From the NCBI GenBank assembly GCA_016934325.1, contig JAFGSV010000030.1, positions 1-40,838 of the forward strand: a DNA stretch of 40,838 bases, in the 5' to 3' direction. Numbering within the stretch: the first letter of the stretch is position 1; each line of letters opens with the position of its first letter. Shown in pieces: positions 183 to 25,061 of the stretch. The translations under genes and the position numbers were made by a program. The notes under the pieces were generated by a model. It was given only the letters and a program-made list of their open reading frames with translations, was not told the DNA's origin and did no database searches. This DNA is from Candidatus Aenigmatarchaeota archaeon (GTDB taxonomy: Archaea > Aenigmatarchaeota > Aenigmatarchaeia > QMZP01 > JAFGSV01).

Positions 183-1409
183 ATGATGACGCAGAAATCA
201 TTGCATGAGCTTTTCAGCAGCTACGCTAACACCACGGGAATATTCAGCAACAAAGGCACGCTCTCGTCAGACTTCACTCCCAACAACATCCCCCACCGGG
301 AGAAGCAGATCCAGGAGCTCGCCATGATCCTAAGGCCCGTCCTCAGGGGCGAGAAGCCGTCGAACCTCTTCATTTACGGCAAGACAGGGACGGGAAAGAG
401 CCTTTGCATAAGGAAGGTCAGCAACACCCTGCAGGAGGTCTCGAGCGGTACCGGGAACGGGCTCAAGGTCATATACATAAACTGCAAGATGAGGAAGGTC
501 GCGGACACCGAGTACAGGCTCCTCGCGCAGATAATATCCTACTTCGGGAAGGACGTGCCATTCACCGGGCTCCCCACCAACAACCTGTACAAGGAGCTCT
601 ACAACCTGATCGACAGCAACGGGGGGAACGTCATATTCGTCCTTGACGAGATAGACGCGCTGCTCGAGAAGGTCGGGGACGACATCCTTTACAACCTGAC
701 GAGGATCAACCAGGATCTCAGCCGGGCAAAGATAACGATAGTCGGGATCTCAAACAAGGTATCGTTCATAGACAACCTCGACCCGAGGATAAGGTCTTCG
801 CTGTCCGAGGAGGAGATGATATTCCCGCCATATAACGCTAACGAGCTCAGGGACATCCTCTCCGAGAGATCGAGTACGGCCTTCAACGACGGCTCCGTCG
901 ACCATGCCGTGCTGACCAAGTGCGCGGCGCTGGCCGCCCAGGAGCACGGGGACGCACGGAAGGCCCTGGACCTGCTCAGGGTGGCGGCGGAGCTCGCCGA
1001 GAGGGCGAACAGCGGCAGGGTGACCGAGCACCACGTCGACATCGCCGAGGAGAAGCTCGACAGGGACAGGATAATCGAGATTATAAGGGCCCAGCCGAAG
1101 CAGTCCAAGCTCGTGATGCTGGCGGTGCTGAGCCTCTTCAAGAGGGGGCAGAAGAACATGCAGACGGGCGAGGTATACGAGCTATACGAGCGGCTGGCGC
1201 TCGAGAACGGCCTCAAGACGCTCACCCAGAGGAGGGTCTCCGATCTCATATCCGAGCTGGACATCATGGGCGTGATCAACGCCAGCGTTGTATCGAAGGG
1301 CAGGTACGGCAGGACGAGGAAGATAAACATACAGCTCGGCCAGAAGATCGTGGCGCTCCTTTCCAAGACGCTCGGCGCCGAATTCCCTGAAGCTTTTATT
1401 AATTTCTGA
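183..1409 (+). CDS. Orc1/Cdc6 replication initiator
   Basis: This AAA+ ATPase would bind origin boxes and start replication or load MCM. At 408 aa it has the usual family length. Walker A GKTGTGKS is at residues 66-73 and Walker B IFVLDEID at 151-158. A sensor-1 Asn is in VGISN (187-191) and the sensor-2 Arg in GDARKAL (256-262). A C-terminal winged-helix region covers about 300-400. Two ATGs are adjacent (183 and 186). AAGGTGGG lies just before them, so 186 would have the better spacing. ORB-like sites lie upstream and the polymerase D small subunit directly downstream, which fits an origin-linked replication cluster. Confidence 0.96.
   Translation: MMTQKSLHELFSSYANTTGIFSNKGTLSSDFTPNNIPHREKQIQELAMILRPVLRGEKPSNLFIYGKTGTGKSLCIRKVSNTLQEVSSGTGNGLKVIYINCKMRKVADTEYRLLAQIISYFGKDVPFTGLPTNNLYKELYNLIDSNGGNVIFVLDEIDALLEKVGDDILYNLTRINQDLSRAKITIVGISNKVSFIDNLDPRIRSSLSEEEMIFPPYNANELRDILSERSSTAFNDGSVDHAVLTKCAALAAQEHGDARKALDLLRVAAELAERANSGRVTEHHVDIAEEKLDRDRIIEIIRAQPKQSKLVMLAVLSLFKRGQKNMQTGEVYELYERLALENGLKTLTQRRVSDLISELDIMGVINASVVSKGRYGRTRKINIQLGQKIVALLSKTLGAEFPEAFINF
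1390..1404 (+). promoter_or_regulatory. TATA-like box for the polymerase D small-subunit gene
   Basis: The T/A-rich sequence GCTTTTATTAATTT lies inside the last codons of orc1. Its centre is about 26 bp upstream of the ATG at 1423, the distance expected for a leaderless archaeal transcript. The gene could therefore be transcribed apart from orc1. Confidence 0.4.
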
Positions 1410-1422
1410 CATATGTTTAAGC

Positions 1423-2355
1423 ATGGAGAAGGAGGCCATAGTCAAGAAGCTCCTGAGCCTTGGCGTGATGGCGACGCCCGACGTTATTGACAGGATCGAG
1501 AAGTCGGGGCTCGACGCTTATCTCGGCAACATCAGCAAGGGCAGCTGCATGGTGGTGCAGGAAGGATCCGGGACAGACGATGCCATCAGCTGCCGCGTCG
1601 GGCAGGTCTCCGCAAAGGCCGAGATGACGCCAGACGATTTCGTGCAGGCCATCGCCGACAAGTTCAAGAGGATCCGGGACCTGCTTCTGCGGAAGATGGA
1701 CGCCGTCTCCATCAGCAACATGAGCCGGATCAGCAGCAAGCTGTCCGTTGTGGGGATGGTGAAGGAAAAGACCGGCCAGGGGTTCGTCCTTGAAGACGGG
1801 ACGGGCGAGGTCGAGGTGAAGTCAGCCACCCCGGTTCGGCTCGATGACGTCATAGGCGTCAGGGGCTGGATTAGGGACGGGAAGCTGTTCGGGGAGGAGA
1901 TAGTATACCCCGACATCCCGGTCAACAGGCCCATCCACAGCATGAAAGGCAAGCTGCTGCTGGTCGGGAATGCCGCCGGCGCGAAGGGTGGTGCCGACGT
2001 CGTCGTCAGCCCTTACGCGGCGAGCGATGGAAGCGGGGCGGAGAAGAGCCTGCCCAACCCTGCTTGGATAACCCTCGAGAAGGGGGATAACAGCATGACC
2101 GTGGTCGTGTACAAGCCGGAAAGGCTTGCCGTCAAGAACGACGCGCTCGGCTGGCTTGCGAAGAGGTACATCGGGACCGACGGCGTGCCGGTGCCGGGCG
2201 GGGACAGGGTGCTCGAAACGATACCGGACATACTGTGGATAGTCTCCGAGAACGAGCCCTGGTCGGGCAACTACAAGGGGGTGACCCTCATCTCCTTCGG
2301 GCAGAGGAACCAGGCGCTGATAGACCTGAACACCAGGAAGATAGATATCAGATGA
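1423..2355 (+). CDS. DNA polymerase D small subunit (DP1), short and apparently nuclease-dead
   Basis: In PolD, DP1 partners the large polymerase subunit DP2 and normally has a calcineurin-like phosphoesterase domain with 3'-5' exonuclease activity. Here the OB-fold region is recognisable (about residues 95-165, SVVGMVKEKTGQGFVLEDGTG), followed by VYPDIPVNRP. The C-terminus IPDILWIVS...GNYKGVTLISFGQ aligns by eye with the DP1 segment containing HTGHxH-NGYG-YRGV-NSGT. The metal-binding signatures are gone. The DIHxGS and GD motifs are absent, GNHD reads as YAAS, the YHGRS His is lost (YKPER), and GHxH reads as SENEP. Length is 310 aa against roughly 450-700 usually. One continuous frame reaches the family C-terminus, so it is not a simple truncation. 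Identity is fairly sure; loss of activity is inferred. Confidence 0.8.
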   Translation: MEKEAIVKKLLSLGVMATPDVIDRIEKSGLDAYLGNISKGSCMVVQEGSGTDDAISCRVGQVSAKAEMTPDDFVQAIADKFKRIRDLLLRKMDAVSISNMSRISSKLSVVGMVKEKTGQGFVLEDGTGEVEVKSATPVRLDDVIGVRGWIRDGKLFGEEIVYPDIPVNRPIHSMKGKLLLVGNAAGAKGGADVVVSPYAASDGSGAEKSLPNPAWITLEKGDNSMTVVVYKPERLAVKNDALGWLAKRYIGTDGVPVPGGDRVLETIPDILWIVSENEPWSGNYKGVTLISFGQRNQALIDLNTRKIDIR

Positions 2356-2445: not shown

Positions 2446-3672
2446 GTGACTTATTCGGAAATCGCGATTGGCATGTTTATCGAGACGGTCCTCTTCTCGG
2501 CCGCGGGAATAGCCCTCGGGGTGCTCGCGGGGCTGGTGCCCGGCCTCCATCCCAATACGGTCCTCATGGTGCTCGCGTCGCTCGTCCTGGCTTCCGGCAC
2601 CATCAGCACATACCCCTTCCTCGCGCTCGTCGTTTCGATGTCGGTGGTAAACACAATCGTGAACTTCATCCCGAGCATTTTCCTTGGCGCCCCCGAACCC
2701 GACAGCTGCCTGTCGGTGCTGCCGGGGCACAGGATGCTGTTGAGAGGGGAAGGCTATGAGGCGCTGCACCTGACTGTCGTGGGCGGTGTGGCGGTTTTGC
2801 TGCTCACAGTGATAGCCCTGCCTTTCGTGCTCTGGTTCATACCTTTCCTATATTCGAACCTAAGGTCGTACATCCACATACTCTTACTTGCGGTTCTAAT
2901 CCTGCTCCTAATGAGCGAGAAGGGCAGAATGAAGGCCTACTCCGCCCTCTTCTTCATGGCATCGGGGATGATGGGCTTCTTCCTGCTTTCTCTCTATCCG
3001 GGTGAGCTGGTGCTGTTCCCTGCCCTGAGCGGCCTTTTCGGGTTTCCGGTGATATTGACGAGCATGGCCCAGGGGACGAAGCTGCCTCCCCAGGCGACCG
3101 ACGTCGGGAGCGGGCACGATTGGAGAAAGGGCGGCATAGGAGGCTGGCTCGCGGGGATGTTCGTCGGCATACTGCCGGGGATCGGCTCGGCGCAGGCCGG
3201 CGTCATCGCCAGCAGGGCGCTGAGGGGCAACGAGAAGGACTTCCTCATCGCCTTGGGGGGAATAAACACATCGAACATAATCTTCACGTTCATCGCCCTC
3301 CAGGCCATCGGGAAGGCGAGATCGGGGGCGGCGTGGGCTGTTTCCGAGGTTATCGGGAGGATAGGATTGTGGGACGTCGGTTTCATAGTGATGATAGCAC
3401 TGGCATCCTGCCTCATCGCAAGCAAGATAACGCTCAGGCTGGGCAGGGGAATGGCCAGGACCATGCACAATATTGATTACAGGAAGGTCAATTCGGCCGT
3501 CCTCGTCCTGATGATTGCGCTGATCCTGCTGATAACCGGGCCCGCCGGGCTGGCAATAACATCGATTTGCGCCTTGCTGGGCATGGCGTGCACCAGGGCC
3601 GGAGCGAAGAAGATGTACCTGATGGGATTCCTGATGCTCCCGACAATCATGTTCTTCTCGGGAATATCATAG
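2446..3672 (+). CDS. Archaeal TctA/DUF112-type membrane protein
   Basis: This 408-aa polytopic protein has about ten hydrophobic segments. It resembles the large membrane subunit of tripartite tricarboxylate transporters in its archaeal stand-alone form. The two family signature repeats are visible as GLVPGLHPNT (about 29-38) and GILPGIGSAQAG (about 241-252), an internal duplication typical of TctA. No periplasmic binding protein or small TctB-like gene is nearby, so the substrate is unknown and transport itself is inferred. The GTG start is favoured by the TATA spacing; the in-frame ATG at 2473 is an alternative. Confidence 0.8.
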   Translation: MTYSEIAIGMFIETVLFSAAGIALGVLAGLVPGLHPNTVLMVLASLVLASGTISTYPFLALVVSMSVVNTIVNFIPSIFLGAPEPDSCLSVLPGHRMLLRGEGYEALHLTVVGGVAVLLLTVIALPFVLWFIPFLYSNLRSYIHILLLAVLILLLMSEKGRMKAYSALFFMASGMMGFFLLSLYPGELVLFPALSGLFGFPVILTSMAQGTKLPPQATDVGSGHDWRKGGIGGWLAGMFVGILPGIGSAQAGVIASRALRGNEKDFLIALGGINTSNIIFTFIALQAIGKARSGAAWAVSEVIGRIGLWDVGFIVMIALASCLIASKITLRLGRGMARTMHNIDYRKVNSAVLVLMIALILLITGPAGLAITSICALLGMACTRAGAKKMYLMGFLMLPTIMFFSGIS

Positions 3673-3977: not shown

Positions 3978-6638
3978 CTAGCGGATCCTGACCATGTCGG
4001 CAGGGCCCGATGCGGACGAGAACAGGAAGGAACCGCCGCATTCGCACCTCCCCACGAGCGGGGGCCTCCTGTACGGCCTGTTGCATTTGCTGCACAGGAA
4101 GCCGTTCACGTCATTTACGCTCACGATTACAGGTTCACGCGCGGCCTGTTCCTGCTCATGCTTGTGATTGTGGTTGTTAATAGCCTCGGCGAGGCCCATC
4201 TGCTTCCCCATGCCTAGAAGCTCCTCCCTGTCGACCCCGATCGCCCCGAATATCCTCTCGAGCGGGGGGAGAAGTTGGTTGTTGATGTAGTAGTTCGAAT
4301 CGAGCTTTATCCCGTTGTCCTTCACGTAAGAAGGGTCCTCCGCCCTCTTCGACAGCAGCTGGGTGCCCTTGACAATCACATAGCCTATCCTGTCGCCCAC
4401 GCCGGGGATGTCGAGCGCTTTCCTGCCCATCATCTTCTTTATCACCTCGACATGGGGCTGCACCCCGACGTATGAATCGGGCCTCTTCGTGATCGTCTTG
4501 GTGATCACGAGCTTTTCTATGTCTATCTTCCCATCGAGCAGCTTGTTCACGATGTCCCTGAAGTACTTCACGGCCTCCTTCAGGTCGTTGTGCTTGAGTA
4601 TGATCTCTATGATCTGGCACATGGTCTCCGACGTCAGCTCGCACCAGTCCCTCCTGACGGTCTCTATGCCCTTCATCACAACGTCCTCCTTCCACTCGCC
4701 GTCCTTCCCCCTCTCGATGGACCATGCCATGTACCTCTTCTTGGTCAATGGCAGGAACCTCTTGAAGATCTTCTCGAACTCCAGCTCCATTATCCCCGGC
4801 AGCTTCTCGGTAATCTTGGTCGATAGCTCCCTGCCCATCCTCTCAGCCTCATCCAGATTCTCCGTCGGTACCTTTATCATCACGGAGTCCGTGTCCCCGT
4901 ACACGACCTCAAAGCCGTATTCGCCTTCTATGGTCTTCACGGTCTCCTGGATGGTGCGCCTCCCGAGGGATGTTATCGCGCTGGCTATCGCTATGTTGTG
5001 TATCTTGGCCCTGGAATAGCCGAAGTATCCGTAGAAGGCGTTCGCCATTACCTTCAGGGCGAGCTGCTTCATGTTCAGGCTGTCAAACACCCTGCCTTCA
5101 GCCTGGGACATCTGCTTCTTGACCTTGCCCCTCTCGGCCATCAGGTTCTCGAGTATCCTTGGCATTATCCCGTAGCGCGTCTTCCTGTCGACGAACCTGG
5201 CGCCGAGCGGGGTAGTGATGACGCCCTCTGCCTTGTCGTCGCTGACGAGAGTGGTCGGGCATATGTTATATGTCCGGATGAGGCTGGGGTACATGGACTT
5301 GAAGTCGAGCACGAGGACCATAGAATGGATCCCCCTCTTCGGCTCGAGCACGAATCCCCCCTTGAGCGAATCCTTCTTTTCCCCGTTCCCGTTCTCCTCG
5401 GGAACCCTGTCCGCCTTGGACGGGAGTATGTAGCCGGCCTTGTTGAACTCCCTGAGCAGGTAGTTCTCGATCCTCTGTATCTCCCCTCCTCCCAGTATGT
5501 CGTTCAGCAGGGATCCCGATATCTTAGCGAGCGCGACGTACTTGTCGAGCAGCTTCATCTTGAGCAGAAGGTTCATTGCGAGCCTGCTGTCCTGCAAGCA
5601 ATAATCCGCGAGCTTCTTGAACTCGGCCTGGGTCCCCCTCCAGTACTTGCCGATCTCGGACTTCTTGACGTCCCCCTTCTCCTCGCCGAGCAGCTCCTTG
5701 GAAACGAAGTCCAGCCCGTACCGCTTGAGGTTCCATCCGCTCTTGACGATCTGGAAGGAATCCGCCATGAGCCTGCCGATTATGGTTATCTTGTACCTGT
5801 TGGCGAACTTGTCGTACCTGACGTACTTGGAGGTGCACCTGCCGAACACCGGCTTCACGTTGTTCTTCCTCATCCTGTCGATGAGGTACGGCATGTCGAA
5901 GTTGTTTATGTTGTAGCCCGTGATGACGTCCGGGTCGTATTCGTTTAGTGTATCGACCAGCTTCTTCAGCATGTCCTTCTCGTCGCTGCAGGGGTCGATC
6001 CCGTCCCCGGCCCTGGTGGACAGGATGATGTGCTTCTTCCCCCTGAATCCCGGCTCGAAAACCAGAGATATCAGGACTACGGGGTCCCTCTCCGCCTCGG
6101 GCATCTTCCCAGCGTCGTCGCTGACCGTCTCAATGTCGATCGCCATGTATTTGAGCGGGGCGTCCTCGTCCTTCTCCACAGCCTCCAAGTGCTTCATCTG
6201 AACCTTCCTCTCGGCCGTGACCGATGTGGTGGCAATGCCGTTGCTTTCGGTCGTCTTGATCCATTTCATGCCCCCGATGCCGTTATCGTTCATCCACCTG
6301 TACTTGAAAAGTATGTCGGCTTCGTAAGGAACGTACCCCTTCGACCTGAGCATGTCGCGAATCTCGGGGGTCTTTGCCGGGTTCCTCAGCGTAATCTTGT
6401 AGACTTCGCTGGGCTCCTGGTAGCCGACCGGCAGGCATCTCTTCACCTTCTCTATGGACAGCACCTGCGGGTTGCCCCTGAGATGCTCCTCCAACCCATC
6501 GCCGGTCACGTAGAAGTAGGGCATGAACCCCTCGTAGAAGCCGCAGACGGTCTCGCCCTCACGGTTCTTCCCGAACACCCTCACGATGGGCTTCTCGTTC
6601 ACCAGGACATAGTCGACGTCAAGCACCTGGAACTCCAT
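3978..6638 (-). CDS. Family-B DNA polymerase with C-terminal zinc-ribbon extension
   Basis: This 886-aa protein is a replicative/repair polymerase with proofreading. Exo I is MAIDIET (D168, E170), Exo II NINNFDMPYL (D248) and Exo III YCLQD (Y346, D350). Motif A is DFKSMYPSLI (D445), motif B KVMANAFYGYFG (529-540) and motif C YGDTDS (D582, D584). All catalytic residues are present. The segment KQMGLAEAI (812-820) lies where many archaeal PolBs end with a PCNA-binding tail. Beyond it are about 65 extra residues with a Cys pattern C849-x2-C852...C865-x-C867, probably a zinc ribbon. The gene faces the orc1 group across the ORB-bearing gap. On the minus strand, TATA-like GTTTATATC near 6671-6681 precedes a short leader with a GTGGTG ribosome binding site. 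Confidence 0.97.
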   Translation of the reverse strand: MEFQVLDVDYVLVNEKPIVRVFGKNREGETVCGFYEGFMPYFYVTGDGLEEHLRGNPQVLSIEKVKRCLPVGYQEPSEVYKITLRNPAKTPEIRDMLRSKGYVPYEADILFKYRWMNDNGIGGMKWIKTTESNGIATTSVTAERKVQMKHLEAVEKDEDAPLKYMAIDIETVSDDAGKMPEAERDPVVLISLVFEPGFRGKKHIILSTRAGDGIDPCSDEKDMLKKLVDTLNEYDPDVITGYNINNFDMPYLIDRMRKNNVKPVFGRCTSKYVRYDKFANRYKITIIGRLMADSFQIVKSGWNLKRYGLDFVSKELLGEEKGDVKKSEIGKYWRGTQAEFKKLADYCLQDSRLAMNLLLKMKLLDKYVALAKISGSLLNDILGGGEIQRIENYLLREFNKAGYILPSKADRVPEENGNGEKKDSLKGGFVLEPKRGIHSMVLVLDFKSMYPSLIRTYNICPTTLVSDDKAEGVITTPLGARFVDRKTRYGIMPRILENLMAERGKVKKQMSQAEGRVFDSLNMKQLALKVMANAFYGYFGYSRAKIHNIAIASAITSLGRRTIQETVKTIEGEYGFEVVYGDTDSVMIKVPTENLDEAERMGRELSTKITEKLPGIMELEFEKIFKRFLPLTKKRYMAWSIERGKDGEWKEDVVMKGIETVRRDWCELTSETMCQIIEIILKHNDLKEAVKYFRDIVNKLLDGKIDIEKLVITKTITKRPDSYVGVQPHVEVIKKMMGRKALDIPGVGDRIGYVIVKGTQLLSKRAEDPSYVKDNGIKLDSNYYINNQLLPPLERIFGAIGVDREELLGMGKQMGLAEAINNHNHKHEQEQAAREPVIVSVNDVNGFLCSKCNRPYRRPPLVGRCECGGSFLFSSASGPADMVRIR

Positions 6639-20118: not shown

Positions 20119-21636
20119 ATGAACCTCACCCGGCTTATCCTGGAGAGAAATTCCGGCAATACGGAATCGATATGCCTGACGCAAGGCGATGATAGCTATT
20201 CCTACGGACAGCTGTTCGCCATGGTTGGCAAGGTGAAGGGATTCCTCTCGGGGAAAACAGGGAAAGGCGACAGGGTCGGATTGCTTTGCGAGAACGGCAT
20301 TGGATTCGTCTCGGCATATCTCGCCTGCCTCGATTCGGGGGTCGTGGTGGTGCCGACGAACACGAGCTCCTCCCGGGAGGAGCTGGAGTACATGGCCGGA
20401 AACTGCGCAATCAAGTTGTTCATCTGCTCCGCCAAGATGAGGAAGAAGCTGGAACTCGGCATACCGGATCATGACATATCGGGAATCCTTGAAGGTGACG
20501 GACCCGAAGCGCGGATAGGGAAGGAGAACCTGACGGATAAAGGTGATCTGGCGGCGTTGATGCATACATCAGGCAGCACCGGCAAGCCGAACGCCGTCAT
20601 GGTGACCCACGGCAACCTGCTCGCGAACACGTCATCCATACTCGGATATCTCGACATGAAGCCGAGCGACAGGACCATGGTCGTCCTCCCTTTCTATTAC
20701 TGCTATGGCGCATCACTGCTCCACATGACGCTGTGCGCGGGCGGACGGGTCGTCATAAACAACAAGTTCATGTTCCCTCAACGTGTCGCCAACGAGATAG
20801 TGGAGAAGAGGTGCACGATATTCGCTGGGGTTCCCAGCACATACCAGATAATGCTCAAGTACACGAGGATGGCTGAGATGGACATGTCTTGCCTGAGGTA
20901 TGCGCTGCAGGCGGGAGGGAAGCTCCCTGCAGACCACCTCAAGCAGCTGATGAAGGCGCTGCCCGGCACCGGCATAGTCGTCATGTACGGGCAGACGGAG
21001 GCGACGGCAAGGCTTTCATACCTCCCTCCGGACCTGCTAGAATCGAAGCTGGGGTCGGTGGGAAGAGGCATACCGGGAGTCGAGCTGAAGGTCATCGACG
21101 GAAGCGGGCGGGACGCCAAGCCCGGGGAGAGGGGCGAGATAATAGCCAGGGGAAACAACATATCGCCCGGTTACCTGAACAACGATGAAGAGACGCGCAT
21201 GACTTTCAGGGACGGGTGGCTCCATACGGGGGACATAGCCACCGTCGATGATGAAGGGTTCATATATGTCGTCGACAGGGAGAAGGACTTCGTGAAGGTG
21301 GGCGGGAACAGGGTTTCCCTGGCGGAGATAGAGAACACGGCCCTGCCGCTCAAAGGCGTAAGCGAGGCCATCGCAGTGGGCTTCCCTGACGAAATCCTCG
21401 GGGAAGCGGTCGCACTGTTCGTCGTCCCCGCGAACAACGGCCTGAAGCCGCAGGATGTGATGCGGATATGCAGTAAGGAGCTGCCGGCCTACAAGGTGCC
21501 CAAGACCGTCAGAATCATCGACAGGATACCGAGGAACGCTTACGGAAAGGTCCAGAGATTCAAGCTGCTGGAGCAGGTAAGCGTAAATCCCGGCGGACCC
21601 AAGAATACAGCAGAGAAGGTGGCCAGTGATGGATGA
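20119..21636 (+). CDS. AMP-forming acyl-CoA/acyl-ACP ligase
   Basis: 505 aa of the ANL (acyl-CoA synthetase/NRPS adenylation) superfamily. The P-loop TSGSTGKPNAVMVTHGN starts at about residue 150. Other motifs are VMYGQTEA (288-295), WLHTGDIA, VDREKDFVKVGGNRV, and the C-terminal catalytic Lys in YGKVQRF (Lys477). It would adenylate a carboxylic acid with ATP and pass it to a thiol. It sits 5 bp after the ACP gene, so the carrier's phosphopantetheine is the likely acceptor. The substrate cannot be read from the sequence by eye. Overlaps the next gene by 8 bp. Confidence 0.9.
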   Translation: MNLTRLILERNSGNTESICLTQGDDSYSYGQLFAMVGKVKGFLSGKTGKGDRVGLLCENGIGFVSAYLACLDSGVVVVPTNTSSSREELEYMAGNCAIKLFICSAKMRKKLELGIPDHDISGILEGDGPEARIGKENLTDKGDLAALMHTSGSTGKPNAVMVTHGNLLANTSSILGYLDMKPSDRTMVVLPFYYCYGASLLHMTLCAGGRVVINNKFMFPQRVANEIVEKRCTIFAGVPSTYQIMLKYTRMAEMDMSCLRYALQAGGKLPADHLKQLMKALPGTGIVVMYGQTEATARLSYLPPDLLESKLGSVGRGIPGVELKVIDGSGRDAKPGERGEIIARGNNISPGYLNNDEETRMTFRDGWLHTGDIATVDDEGFIYVVDREKDFVKVGGNRVSLAEIENTALPLKGVSEAIAVGFPDEILGEAVALFVVPANNGLKPQDVMRICSKELPAYKVPKTVRIIDRIPRNAYGKVQRFKLLEQVSVNPGGPKNTAEKVASDG

Positions 21637-22690
21637 CCGGATAATCCAGATGCTGCCCAAGGTCCATTTCCCGGGCGCGGTTTTCACGGGAGCCAACTCC
21701 CTGTTCTACCTGAAGACGCTGGACCAGGCGAAGACGCTCATCGTGGCCTCGGAGACGGCCTGGAGGCTCCACCGGGCGAAGATCGAGAAGCACATGCAAT
21801 CCAAGAGGATCATAGAAGCGGGCCACGAGCCGACGGTGGATGACATGGAAAGCCTAAAGGCGGAGGTCAGGAAAGGCGGCTACGAGAGCGTCATTGGGTT
21901 TGGCGGCGGCTCGGCCATGGACCTGGCAAAGACCAGCAGGATGCAGGACGACGGCATAAGGCTGGTGCTCATTCCCACGACGAGCGGGACCGGCTCCGAG
22001 TCGAGCAGGTACGCAATCATGATAAACGAAAAGAAAGAGAAGGAGCCGGTGACTTCCGAGAAGATGGTTCCCGACGTGGTGCTGCTTGACCATTCATTCA
22101 CCCTTTCTCTGCCACCCTTCGAGACCGCATACACATCCATAGACGCCTTGTCGCACTCGGTCGAGGGGCTTGTCTCGAGGCTTGGCAATCCATTGAGCGA
22201 CTCGCTGGCAGCAGCATCGATCGACATCATTGCTGAGAATCTACCGAAGGCCTTCAGGAACCAGCTTGATGCGCAGGCAAGGTCGGCCCTTCAGGTCGCC
22301 GGGTTCCTCGGCGGGCTGGTCCAGAGCAGCGCATCCGTGGGCCTGGCCCATTCGTTCGCCAACTGTCTCGGCCCGAAGCTGGGGATACCGCATGGGGCGG
22401 CGATAGCTGCGTTCCTGCCAGATGTCGTCAGGTTCAACATGGAGAAGTCGGAAAAGTGCGCGAAGCTTAGGAATCCGGCGTTCCTCAGGGATGGCGATGT
22501 GGCCGGGAAGCTGTCAGGCCTGCTGGGGCAGGTGGGCCTCGCGGACTACCTCAATCAGCTCGACTTCAGCCCTGTCGATATCGACGCGGCCGCGGAAAGT
22601 ATAAAGAGCGATGTCTGCACAAAGACGAACCCGTACAACCCGAGCGTCGATGAGATCAGAGGGTTGCTGGCATCTTTCGGGGTGAGATGA
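21629..22690 (+). CDS. Iron-type (group III) alcohol dehydrogenase
   Basis: 353 aa. An NAD(P)-binding segment GFGGGSAMDLAK is followed by PTTSGTGSESSRYAIM. All four metal ligands of the family are present: Asp172 and His176 in SIDALSHSVEG, His241 in GLAHSFANCLG, and His255 in GIPHGAA. It would interconvert an aldehyde and an alcohol, in context probably reducing the aldehyde made by the LuxC-like enzyme. Translationally coupled on both sides (8-bp and 4-bp overlaps). AAGGTGG lies just before the start. A GTG at 21626 is an equal in-frame alternative. Confidence 0.92.
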   Translation: MDDRIIQMLPKVHFPGAVFTGANSLFYLKTLDQAKTLIVASETAWRLHRAKIEKHMQSKRIIEAGHEPTVDDMESLKAEVRKGGYESVIGFGGGSAMDLAKTSRMQDDGIRLVLIPTTSGTGSESSRYAIMINEKKEKEPVTSEKMVPDVVLLDHSFTLSLPPFETAYTSIDALSHSVEGLVSRLGNPLSDSLAAASIDIIAENLPKAFRNQLDAQARSALQVAGFLGGLVQSSASVGLAHSFANCLGPKLGIPHGAAIAAFLPDVVRFNMEKSEKCAKLRNPAFLRDGDVAGKLSGLLGQVGLADYLNQLDFSPVDIDAAAESIKSDVCTKTNPYNPSVDEIRGLLASFGVR

Positions 22691-23784
22691 TGGGTGAGAT
22701 AGAGAACCTGCTGGGCGCAGAGCCATTCGGGATGGGAAAGGATGAGAAGAGGGAGAAGTTCCTAAGCGCGATGCGGGAGTCCCTTGCGTTCCATTGCGGC
22801 AACTGCCGGGAGTTCAGGGATTTCTGCGGCAGGCGTGGGTTCGACCCGGCCGGCAAGTTCTCGCTCGAGGACATACCATTCCTGCATGTTGATACATTCA
22901 AGACGGTCAGGCTCGTTTCGGTGCCCGAGAAGGACATAGTCAAGAGCGTGCAATCCAGCTCGACCACCGGGAACGTCCCGAGCACGGTCAGGCTCGACAG
23001 GGTGACGATCGAGAGGCAGAGGAGGGTGCTCAGCTCCATAATGGCCAGCTTCATAGGGCCGGAGAGGAAGGCGTTCATTATACTGGACAGTCCGGAGACC
23101 GTCAAGTCCAAGGAAGGGAAGATATCGTCAAGGGCGAGCGGCATAAGGGGCATGCTCCCGTTCTCAAAGCAGGTGTTCTACGCCCTGAACGAGAATCTTG
23201 AGCCAGACGCAGAATCGCTCAGAAGGGCCGTCGGCGCGATAGGGCCCGGTGTAGAGGTGTGCTTTTTCGGATTCACGTTCCTCATGTATAAGTTCGTCGT
23301 GGAGGCCGAGAAAAACAAGGAGATGCTCGACATGCTCAAGGGGCTGCACGAGCCGGTGATCGTCCACACAGGCGGCTGGAAGAAGCTCAAGGACCTCATG
23401 ATAAGCAAGGCGGAGTTCAACGAGTCAGTCGCCAAGGCGTTCAACACGGTGCCGGGGAAGGTCATAGACATGTACGGCATGACGGAGCAACTGGGGACCG
23501 TTTACCCGGACTGCGAGCGCGGCTACAAGCATGTCCCCGTGTACTCGGATATCATCATCCGTGACCCGAACACGTTCGAGCCCGTCCGAAACGGAGAGCC
23601 CGGGCTCATCCAGCTGCTGAGCCCAGTGCCCAACAGCTATCCAGGCATATCGCTCATCACCGACGACATGGGCGTGATGATCGGCGATGACGGGTGCAAG
23701 TGCGGGAGGAGAGGAGAGCATTTCATCTTCAAGGAGAGGGTCAAGAAGAGCGAGATAAAAGGATGCGGTGACACCCTGAAATGA
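22687..23784 (+). CDS. LuxE-like acyl-protein synthetase
   Basis: 365 aa. It resembles LuxE, the ATP-dependent enzyme of bacterial fatty acid reductase that forms acyl-AMP and hands the acyl group on for reduction. Visible motifs are the nucleotide loop SSSTTGNVPST (90-100), DMYGMTEQ (261-268), and a C-terminal CGRRGEHFIFKERVKKSEIK region like the hinge of adenylating enzymes. The start overlaps the dehydrogenase stop as ATGA, and its own end overlaps the LuxC-like gene as ATGA, so LuxE and LuxC partners are probably made in equal amounts. A second acid-activating enzyme in one operon suggests either two substrates or a relay. Confidence 0.85.
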   Translation: MMGEIENLLGAEPFGMGKDEKREKFLSAMRESLAFHCGNCREFRDFCGRRGFDPAGKFSLEDIPFLHVDTFKTVRLVSVPEKDIVKSVQSSSTTGNVPSTVRLDRVTIERQRRVLSSIMASFIGPERKAFIILDSPETVKSKEGKISSRASGIRGMLPFSKQVFYALNENLEPDAESLRRAVGAIGPGVEVCFFGFTFLMYKFVVEAEKNKEMLDMLKGLHEPVIVHTGGWKKLKDLMISKAEFNESVAKAFNTVPGKVIDMYGMTEQLGTVYPDCERGYKHVPVYSDIIIRDPNTFEPVRNGEPGLIQLLSPVPNSYPGISLITDDMGVMIGDDGCKCGRRGEHFIFKERVKKSEIKGCGDTLK

Positions 23785-25061
23785 GCTTAAAGACTATATT
23801 CTTCGATGGGAGGATATGCCGGAGCGAGCCGGACGGCCTGGACGAGATAGCCGACGCCCTCAGGAAGCAGGCCAGGGCTCTGCACGACATCGAGGTTGAC
23901 GAGCTTGTGGAATTCTTCGACGCCGTCGGCAGGCATTGGCTCAGGAGCCCCGGAATCAAGAAGAGGTTCGGGCCCACGCTCAAATTCCTCGCAAAGTTCA
24001 TGGACAAGGGGAACCTGACGACCCTGCTGGATACAGCCCTGAGGGACAGGCATGCGCTTGACGGTTTCGTCAAGCTAAACAAGACGAAGATGCTTTTCCA
24101 TGCCCAGCCCAGGGGGCTGACTGTACACTGGATAGCCGGGAATGTCCCTGTTCTTGGGATATTCTCCGTCCTGCAGGCGTTGCTTACCAAGAACGCATGC
24201 CTGGTGAAGGCGTCGTCAAGATCATATGAGGACATGACCGCGCTGCTTCAGTCATTCAGCGAAGTCAGCACGAAGAATCTCAAGGGAAACCGGATCGCCA
24301 AGGCCGTCGCGGTCGTCCTTGTTGAGAGGGAGGACAAGGAAAGCCAGCGAAAGCTCTCAATGTCGGCCGACGTGAGGATAGCCTGGGGCGGCAGGGAGGC
24401 GGTCGATGCCATAACGAGATTAGAGAGAAGGGCGGAGACGGAGGACATCATATATGGCCCCAAGTACTCGTATGCCGTGATCGGCAGGGAAAAATTGCGC
24501 GGAGACGTCAGGCCCCTTGCCTACAAGCTCGCCATAGACGCCTCGGCGTTCGACCAGTATGCGTGCTCTTCCCCCCATACCGTGTTCGTCGAGAGGGGCG
24601 GGAAGGCCAGCCCGCTCGATTTCGCCGAGGAGCTGGCGAAGCAGATGGACTTCGTGAGCAAGAAGGTAATACAGCCGGGGAAACCGGACCCCGGCAGGTC
24701 GCTTGACATACTGAAGGCCAGGAACGAATACGAGTTCAGGGGGCAGGTATTCTCTTCGAAGAACACGGACTGGACGGTCATATATTCCGATGAGCAGGGG
24801 CTGGCCCAGGCATGCTTCTCGAGGGTAGTGTTCGTAAGGCCGGTCGATGACATAAGCGACGTCTGCGCCTTCAGCGGCAGAGGGATGCAGACGATGGGAG
24901 TCGCCGTGTCCGACGAGAGGAGGCGGACCTTCGCCGACAGCGCAACGGTTCGCGGCATAGACAGGTGCCCGCCTATCGGGGAGATGTCCTTCTTCCAGTC
25001 CCCCTGGGACGGCATGTTCGCGTTCGACAGGCTTGTGCGCTGGGTGACGACCTATGAGTGA
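23781..25061 (+). CDS. LuxC-like acyl-CoA/acyl-protein reductase
   Basis: 426 aa. It belongs to the LuxC family (aldehyde-dehydrogenase fold), which reduces an enzyme-bound acyl thioester with NAD(P)H to an aldehyde. The catalytic Cys is visible in FDQYACSSPHTVFVE (Cys262). WIAGNVPVLGIFSVLQALLTKNA (about 115-137) matches the LuxC nucleotide-binding region, and a later segment reads FSSKNTDWTVIYS. Length is close to that of LuxC (about 480 aa in luminous bacteria), slightly shorter. Coupled by ATGA overlap to LuxE upstream and by 8 bp to AcpS downstream. No luciferase genes are nearby, so this is not bioluminescence. Confidence 0.88.
   Translation: MSLKTIFFDGRICRSEPDGLDEIADALRKQARALHDIEVDELVEFFDAVGRHWLRSPGIKKRFGPTLKFLAKFMDKGNLTTLLDTALRDRHALDGFVKLNKTKMLFHAQPRGLTVHWIAGNVPVLGIFSVLQALLTKNACLVKASSRSYEDMTALLQSFSEVSTKNLKGNRIAKAVAVVLVEREDKESQRKLSMSADVRIAWGGREAVDAITRLERRAETEDIIYGPKYSYAVIGREKLRGDVRPLAYKLAIDASAFDQYACSSPHTVFVERGGKASPLDFAEELAKQMDFVSKKVIQPGKPDPGRSLDILKARNEYEFRGQVFSSKNTDWTVIYSDEQGLAQACFSRVVFVRPVDDISDVCAFSGRGMQTMGVAVSDERRRTFADSATVRGIDRCPPIGEMSFFQSPWDGMFAFDRLVRWVTTYE

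Follow-up and report, generated by a model that had tools for sequence, protein, structure and literature searches.

The locus studied here raises the question of what a relative of DP1, the small subunit of the archaeal polymerase PolD, does when its nuclease motifs have disappeared and a B-family DNA polymerase (PolB) is encoded close by. The window, i.e. the whole stretch of DNA that was analysed, comprises positions 1 to 40,838 of contig JAFGSV010000030.1 of a Candidatus Aenigmatarchaeota archaeon (GCA_016934325.1), a 1.24 Mb assembly of 35 contigs that is 79% complete. The gene in question (1423..2355, + strand, ATG start) encodes a protein of 310 aa and was delineated from its open reading frame, DP1 profile matches and an AlphaFold model. 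It lies directly downstream of a gene for an Orc1/Cdc6 replication initiator (183..1409, +) and is followed by a TctA-like membrane protein gene with no known role in replication (2446..3672, +) and by the gene of a Pol delta-like PolB of 886 aa (3978..6638, −), which is convergent to it at a distance of 1.6 kb. Over the PolB, the nearest named records are 63-68% identical and are labelled Candidatus Aenigmatarchaeota or simply archaea, including the chromosome CP070804; CP070801 holds a further relative with 54% identity. The initial annotation took the 310-aa protein for a PolD subunit that had lost its nuclease site. As shown below, the loss of the site is upheld and the assignment to PolD is not.

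The DP1 profile NF003118 matched the protein at residues 63-169 only (E=5.9e-16), with 58.5 bits, far under the curated cut-off of 445 bits, and no Pfam family passed its own cut-off. A single-sequence phmmer search of the PDB returned only noise, and a profile built from 10 homologues was required. This profile found the solved DP1 structures with E-values from 4e-18 (6knb) to 7e-14 (1.5e-14 for 5ihe), the best match including an extra weak stretch, residues 210-294, in the DP1 C-terminal core; Pol epsilon subunit 2 was found at E=0.07, and RPA subunits gave weak matches. The AlphaFold model (pLDDT 82.5, pTM 0.74) matched P. abyssi DP1 best (E=2.2e-13) and after it the B-subunits of Pol delta, epsilon, zeta and alpha (from E=3e-10). 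At E<=0.001 the model has 46 PDB matches, each of them a DP1 or a eukaryotic B-subunit. Given these profile and structure matches, the 310-aa protein is a genuine DP1/B-subunit homologue, and the OB region and C-terminal core are indeed retained, as had been read by eye.

The protein begins with a helical segment (residues 1-40, 1423..1542, +) in which G14 and P19 are conserved. It continues with an OB fold (residues about 95-166, 1705..1920, +) carrying the E-D-x-T-G and P-D-x-P signatures common to active DP1, and ends in what is left of the phosphoesterase domain (residues about 177-310, 1951..2352, +) from which the core between motifs I and IV has been deleted while P268-D269 and N283-Y284-K285 are kept. 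The N-terminal segment, OB fold, C-terminal core and overall fold are those of P. abyssi DP1 (5ihe, 6hmf, 8ppt). In P. abyssi DP1 the metal ligands are D360, H362, D404, N450, H497, H560 and H562, and H451 is catalytic (PMC10721889). Unlike this enzyme, the window protein has neither the active-site residues nor a DP2 partner. Intact DP1s of the same class read SDLHVGS, AGDLVDG, PGNHDIV, MYHGYSY and SGHLHTV at the five phosphoesterase motifs. In the alignment with them, none of the five is found in the 310-aa protein: motif I and the GD are absent, VYKPER stands for YHG, and IVSENEP stands for SGHLHT, with SENEP (2245..2259, +) at the position of the GHxH of motif V in active DP1. Alignment to the DP1 families supported both the homology and the loss of DIHxGS, GD, the YHGR His and GHxH (replaced by SENEP), as well as the shortening to 310 aa, about 165 residues below the intact DP1s of the class. 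The proposal that GNHD now reads YAAS held only in part: a SPYAASD does occur near motifs II-III, but the correspondence is approximate because the segment between the motifs is deleted. At most two of the eight active-site residues are matched in any of 31 sequences of the window's order, and these matches are probably due to chance alignment. The protein would be expected to have no nuclease activity. A search of the 79%-complete assembly with the DP1 model found no second, intact DP1. The only two other matches, on contigs C20 and C21, were rejected: they correspond to a lone calcineurin-type phosphoesterase of 307 aa without an OB fold and to the OB domain of an aminoacyl-tRNA synthetase-like protein.

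The neighbouring PolB has its exonuclease motifs (DIET, NNFD, YCLQD) and its polymerase motifs (DFKSMYPS, YGDTDS) intact, with residues that are invariant in the alignment, in agreement with the annotated exonuclease-proficient PolB next door. Its best PDB matches are catalytic subunits of Pol delta (568 bits), by a small margin over archaeal PolBs (545 bits). The last 40 residues carry a zinc finger, CSKCNRPYRRPPLVGRCECGG (4017..4100, −), with one CxxC...CxC motif. This finger is homologous to Zn-III of DP2 (DP2 model positions 1042-1070) and near-identical to CTSCNAIYRRPPLSGKCLKCKG, found at the Zn-III position of DP2 in family f10 of the same class. Across the class, almost every PolB whose tail could be read ends in such a finger. 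The PolB has little of the helical bundle found in the DP2 tail; a Foldseek search with a model of the PolB tail ranked PolD DP2 chains first, weakly (E=0.024), and has a supporting role only, the model being of low confidence outside the finger. In PolD, the basic loop KxRRxP of Zn-III sits in the acidic OB/phosphoesterase groove of DP1, and nanomolar affinity for DP1 has been measured for a 20-aa peptide of Zn-III (PMC6355029). The window PolB has the RR pair of this docking loop, which some relatives of its order lack.

In view of the DP2-like finger on the neighbouring PolB, the most plausible reading of the 310-aa protein is that of a PolB B-subunit. We propose, with a probability of about 0.86, that it is a non-catalytic scaffold subunit of the PolB encoded at 3978-6638, and that this PolB replaced the catalytic subunit of PolD while DP1 was kept as a partner. 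From the computed homology, predicted fold, motif loss, DP2 absence, finger homology, gene neighbourhood and purifying selection, we infer the physical complex, the nuclease inactivity, the scaffold role and the order of events. In the ancestor of most Aenigmatarchaeota, the PolD catalytic subunit would have given way to a Pol delta-like PolB bearing the DP1-docking finger of DP2; DP2 would have been lost and the old small subunit retained as the partner of PolB. The DP1 nuclease would have become dispensable after this swap because PolB has its own DnaQ-type exonuclease; it would have been disabled first at GNHD, and its core deleted later in the window's order. By analogy with PolD and the eukaryotic polymerases, PolB and the B-subunit would form a physical complex in which the zinc finger docks in the OB/phosphoesterase groove. 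The docked subunit would stabilise the polymerase tail and couple it to the other replisome components.

The genes for the B-subunit and PolB are at most 5 kb apart in 95 of the 99 cases in which they share a contig. They are mostly convergent in the window's order, as in the window, and mostly on the same strand with PolB downstream of the B-subunit in the remaining class. Across 100 B-subunits, 25 columns hold a conserved residue in at least 75% of the sequences, including E124-D125-x-T127-G128, P163-D164-x-P166, R248, P268-D269 and Y284-K285. None is a metal ligand, and at nearly all of them active DP1 has the same or a similar residue. Judging from these columns, it is the scaffold that selection retains, not the nuclease. 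Conservation is highest in the OB fold, and this, together with the weak matches to RPA subunits, could also suggest a DP1 remnant that is not bound to a polymerase and acts alone, for example as an OB-fold protein binding single-strand DNA or primase. We consider this improbable, since residues of the C-terminal core (P268-D269, Y284-K285, R248) are conserved too, the PolB gene lies nearby and the matching finger has been retained on PolB. The single-contig genome G034 has two B-subunit genes from different branches, at 458646-459605 (+) and 706021-706941 (−) (loci L062 and L011), only one of which adjoins PolB.

As a true DP1 homologue from an assembly that is only 79% complete, the protein could be the small subunit of a PolD without proofreading, as first annotated, and in that case PolD would need proofreading from elsewhere. 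This is contradicted by the distribution of DP2, and the probability that we leave to it is very small. In the window's own genome (79% complete), the DP2 model gave a single match, namely the PolB tail. When 145 genomes of the class and 156 of the phylum Aenigmatarchaeota were searched, a full DP2 was found in 10, all of family f10, and DP2 was absent from the other 146 of the phylum. Outside f10 it was found in 0 of 134 genomes of the class, among which are the single-contig chromosomes G005 and G034 as well as 38 of the 39 genomes with a completeness of at least 90%. The DP2-like finger sits on PolB, and no PolD remains to be proofread. With a score below the cut-off, no motifs and no DP2 partner, the protein falls outside NF003118 on three counts.

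Intact DP1 was likewise found, at the strict threshold, in eight genomes, all of f10; one further match at this threshold, in G086 (family f15), was rejected as an eroded B-subunit. The type of PolB found in the window is present in 115 of the 134 non-f10 genomes versus 0 of the 11 f10 genomes, the non-f10 genomes scored as lacking it including some with fragmented PolBs or with open frames of 1300-1400 aa that resemble intein insertions. PolD and this PolB are thus mutually exclusive across the 145 genomes of the class, a pattern that goes back to few evolutionary events, probably a single swap, and not to many independent cases. PolB open frames that look enlarged by inteins, with about 1320-1400 aa, were seen in G051, G081, G108, G132 and G142, and such genes would account for some of the apparent absences at the strict threshold. 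Most genomes of the order formed by f1-f5 (e.g. G009:C5:63512-65890 and G026:C40:12848-15259) encode a further PolB of about 820 aa, which shares 28-35% identity with that of the window; it was not found in the window's own 79%-complete genome.

The source genome is an incomplete draft, and the motif-bearing segment might have been removed by a frameshift, pseudogene formation or an assembly error, but this explanation has next to no probability given the confident fold, dN/dS far below 1 and homologues in independent genomes of the family, including the single-contig CP070804, that span the full length (about 300-311 aa) without a stop. The dN/dS (NG86) is 0.09 and 0.22 for two B-subunit pairs of the window's order; values in other families are lower, with synonymous sites often near saturation. 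With homologues of about 300 aa throughout the order and purifying selection, the 310-aa form is no sequencing accident.

Erosion of the nuclease is graded within the class. It was scored from the eight active-site residues in 110 sequences, the eroded segments being aligned with uncertainty, and calls of single residues in divergent families need care. Family f10 has all eight residues in 7/7 scored DP1s (median 475 aa), a count that omits an eighth, intein-bearing f10 DP1. In the latter (L158, genome G058; 847 aa) the apparent intein lies within motif II, and the DP2 open frame of 1466 aa on G058:C34 is also interrupted, probably by a further intein. A clade of 29 sequences from f6, f13, f15, f24, f25 and f30 (support 99-100, median 361 aa) often retains SDLHLDE, AGDI, xIH and GHTHEP. 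At motif III it reads PGExD, PGNMD or similar, and GNHD in 0/29. The mean retention of the eight residues in this ligand-keeping clade is 0.55 versus 0.27 for 106 other domain positions that are invariant in f10 (resampling p=0.03). Six of the eight are retained in 3/3 sequences of f15, and f21 has partial motif remnants. No active-site motifs are left in the window's order (31 sequences, median 300 aa) or in most other families. A tree built without the nuclease columns requires no fewer than 10 changes between the kept and lost states; erosion therefore probably occurred repeatedly, and the tree does not place the B-subunit root. A single clade of all B-subunits outside the ligand-keeping clade appeared in a first tree and was dropped, as it was lost without the nuclease columns. 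B-subunits of f6, f15, f24, f25 and f30 (e.g. L094, L132, L102, L135), which retain most metal ligands and read PGExD or PGNMD for GNHD, are possible metal-binding intermediates. A tentative idea, which we regard as rather unlikely, is that Aenigmatarchaeota preserve an ordered transition in which the polymerase swap was followed by loss of GNHD (often to PGExD) with the other ligands under selection, and then by repeated deletion of the domain. The intermediates (f15, f25, f30, parts of f6 and f21) may then bind metal or have an altered nuclease activity, which would give a polymerase with two unrelated editing sites.

The kind of system, with inactive DP1, B6-aenigma1 PolB and loss of DP2, was already described in 2020, and the window locus is a further member. 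Kazlauskas et al. reported that most Aenigmarchaeota have no DP2, that a Zn-III-like finger is present on their B6-aenigma1 PolBs and that their DP1 is inactive (PMC7544198). The window protein resembles the inactive DP1 of their group 'Aenigma_GB_GCA_002789635-like' in phylum, in the missing DP2 and in a PolB with a single Zn-III-like finger and an intact exonuclease. It was assigned there by description, its inactive DP1, lack of DP2, co-occurring zinc-finger PolB and Aenigmarchaeota origin being those of the group. The PolB is assigned to B6-aenigma1 by its features, being delta-like with one Zn-III-like C-terminal motif. Unlike the inactive DP1 as described, the nuclease core is wholly deleted in the window's order. 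Targeted searches of an open library of papers turned up no later work in which the system is named or the complex tested. Newly added here are the PolD-retaining family with the exclusive distribution, the gene neighbourhood, the predicted fold, selection and the graded nuclease loss.

The parallel with the inactivated B-subunits of eukaryotes, also drawn in the initial annotation, is corroborated by the fold matches to Pol delta, epsilon, alpha and zeta B-subunits and had been proposed for the phylum in 2020 (PMC7544198), when it was suggested that eukaryotic B-subunits may derive from the Aenigmarchaeota group (PMC7544198). According to the predicted structure and the missing motifs, the 310-aa protein has their architecture, an OB fold with an inactivated phosphoesterase fold, and the same genome encodes its proposed partner, a PolB with a DP2/CysB-related zinc-finger tail. 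Unlike the similarity in fold, sequence similarity to the eukaryotic B-subunits is almost undetectable, and where the window PolB has one metal motif in its tail, Pol alpha and epsilon each have two in theirs (PMC7544198). The locus bears on how eukaryotic polymerases gained an inactive DP1-derived B-subunit together with a DP2-derived zinc finger. This eukaryote-like combination is present in living archaea, beside a PolD-complete sister family and intermediates, and the order of polymerase swap, nuclease loss and domain shrinkage is thereby open to biochemical and comparative testing. It also calls for caution, as a DP1-like match in an archaeal genome does not mean a functional PolD.

Elsewhere in the window, at 20119-25061, a row of genes encodes an AMP-binding enzyme, an iron alcohol dehydrogenase and LuxE-like and LuxC-like acyl reductase proteins. 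It looks like a module of the fatty-aldehyde type, seemingly unusual for such an archaeon.
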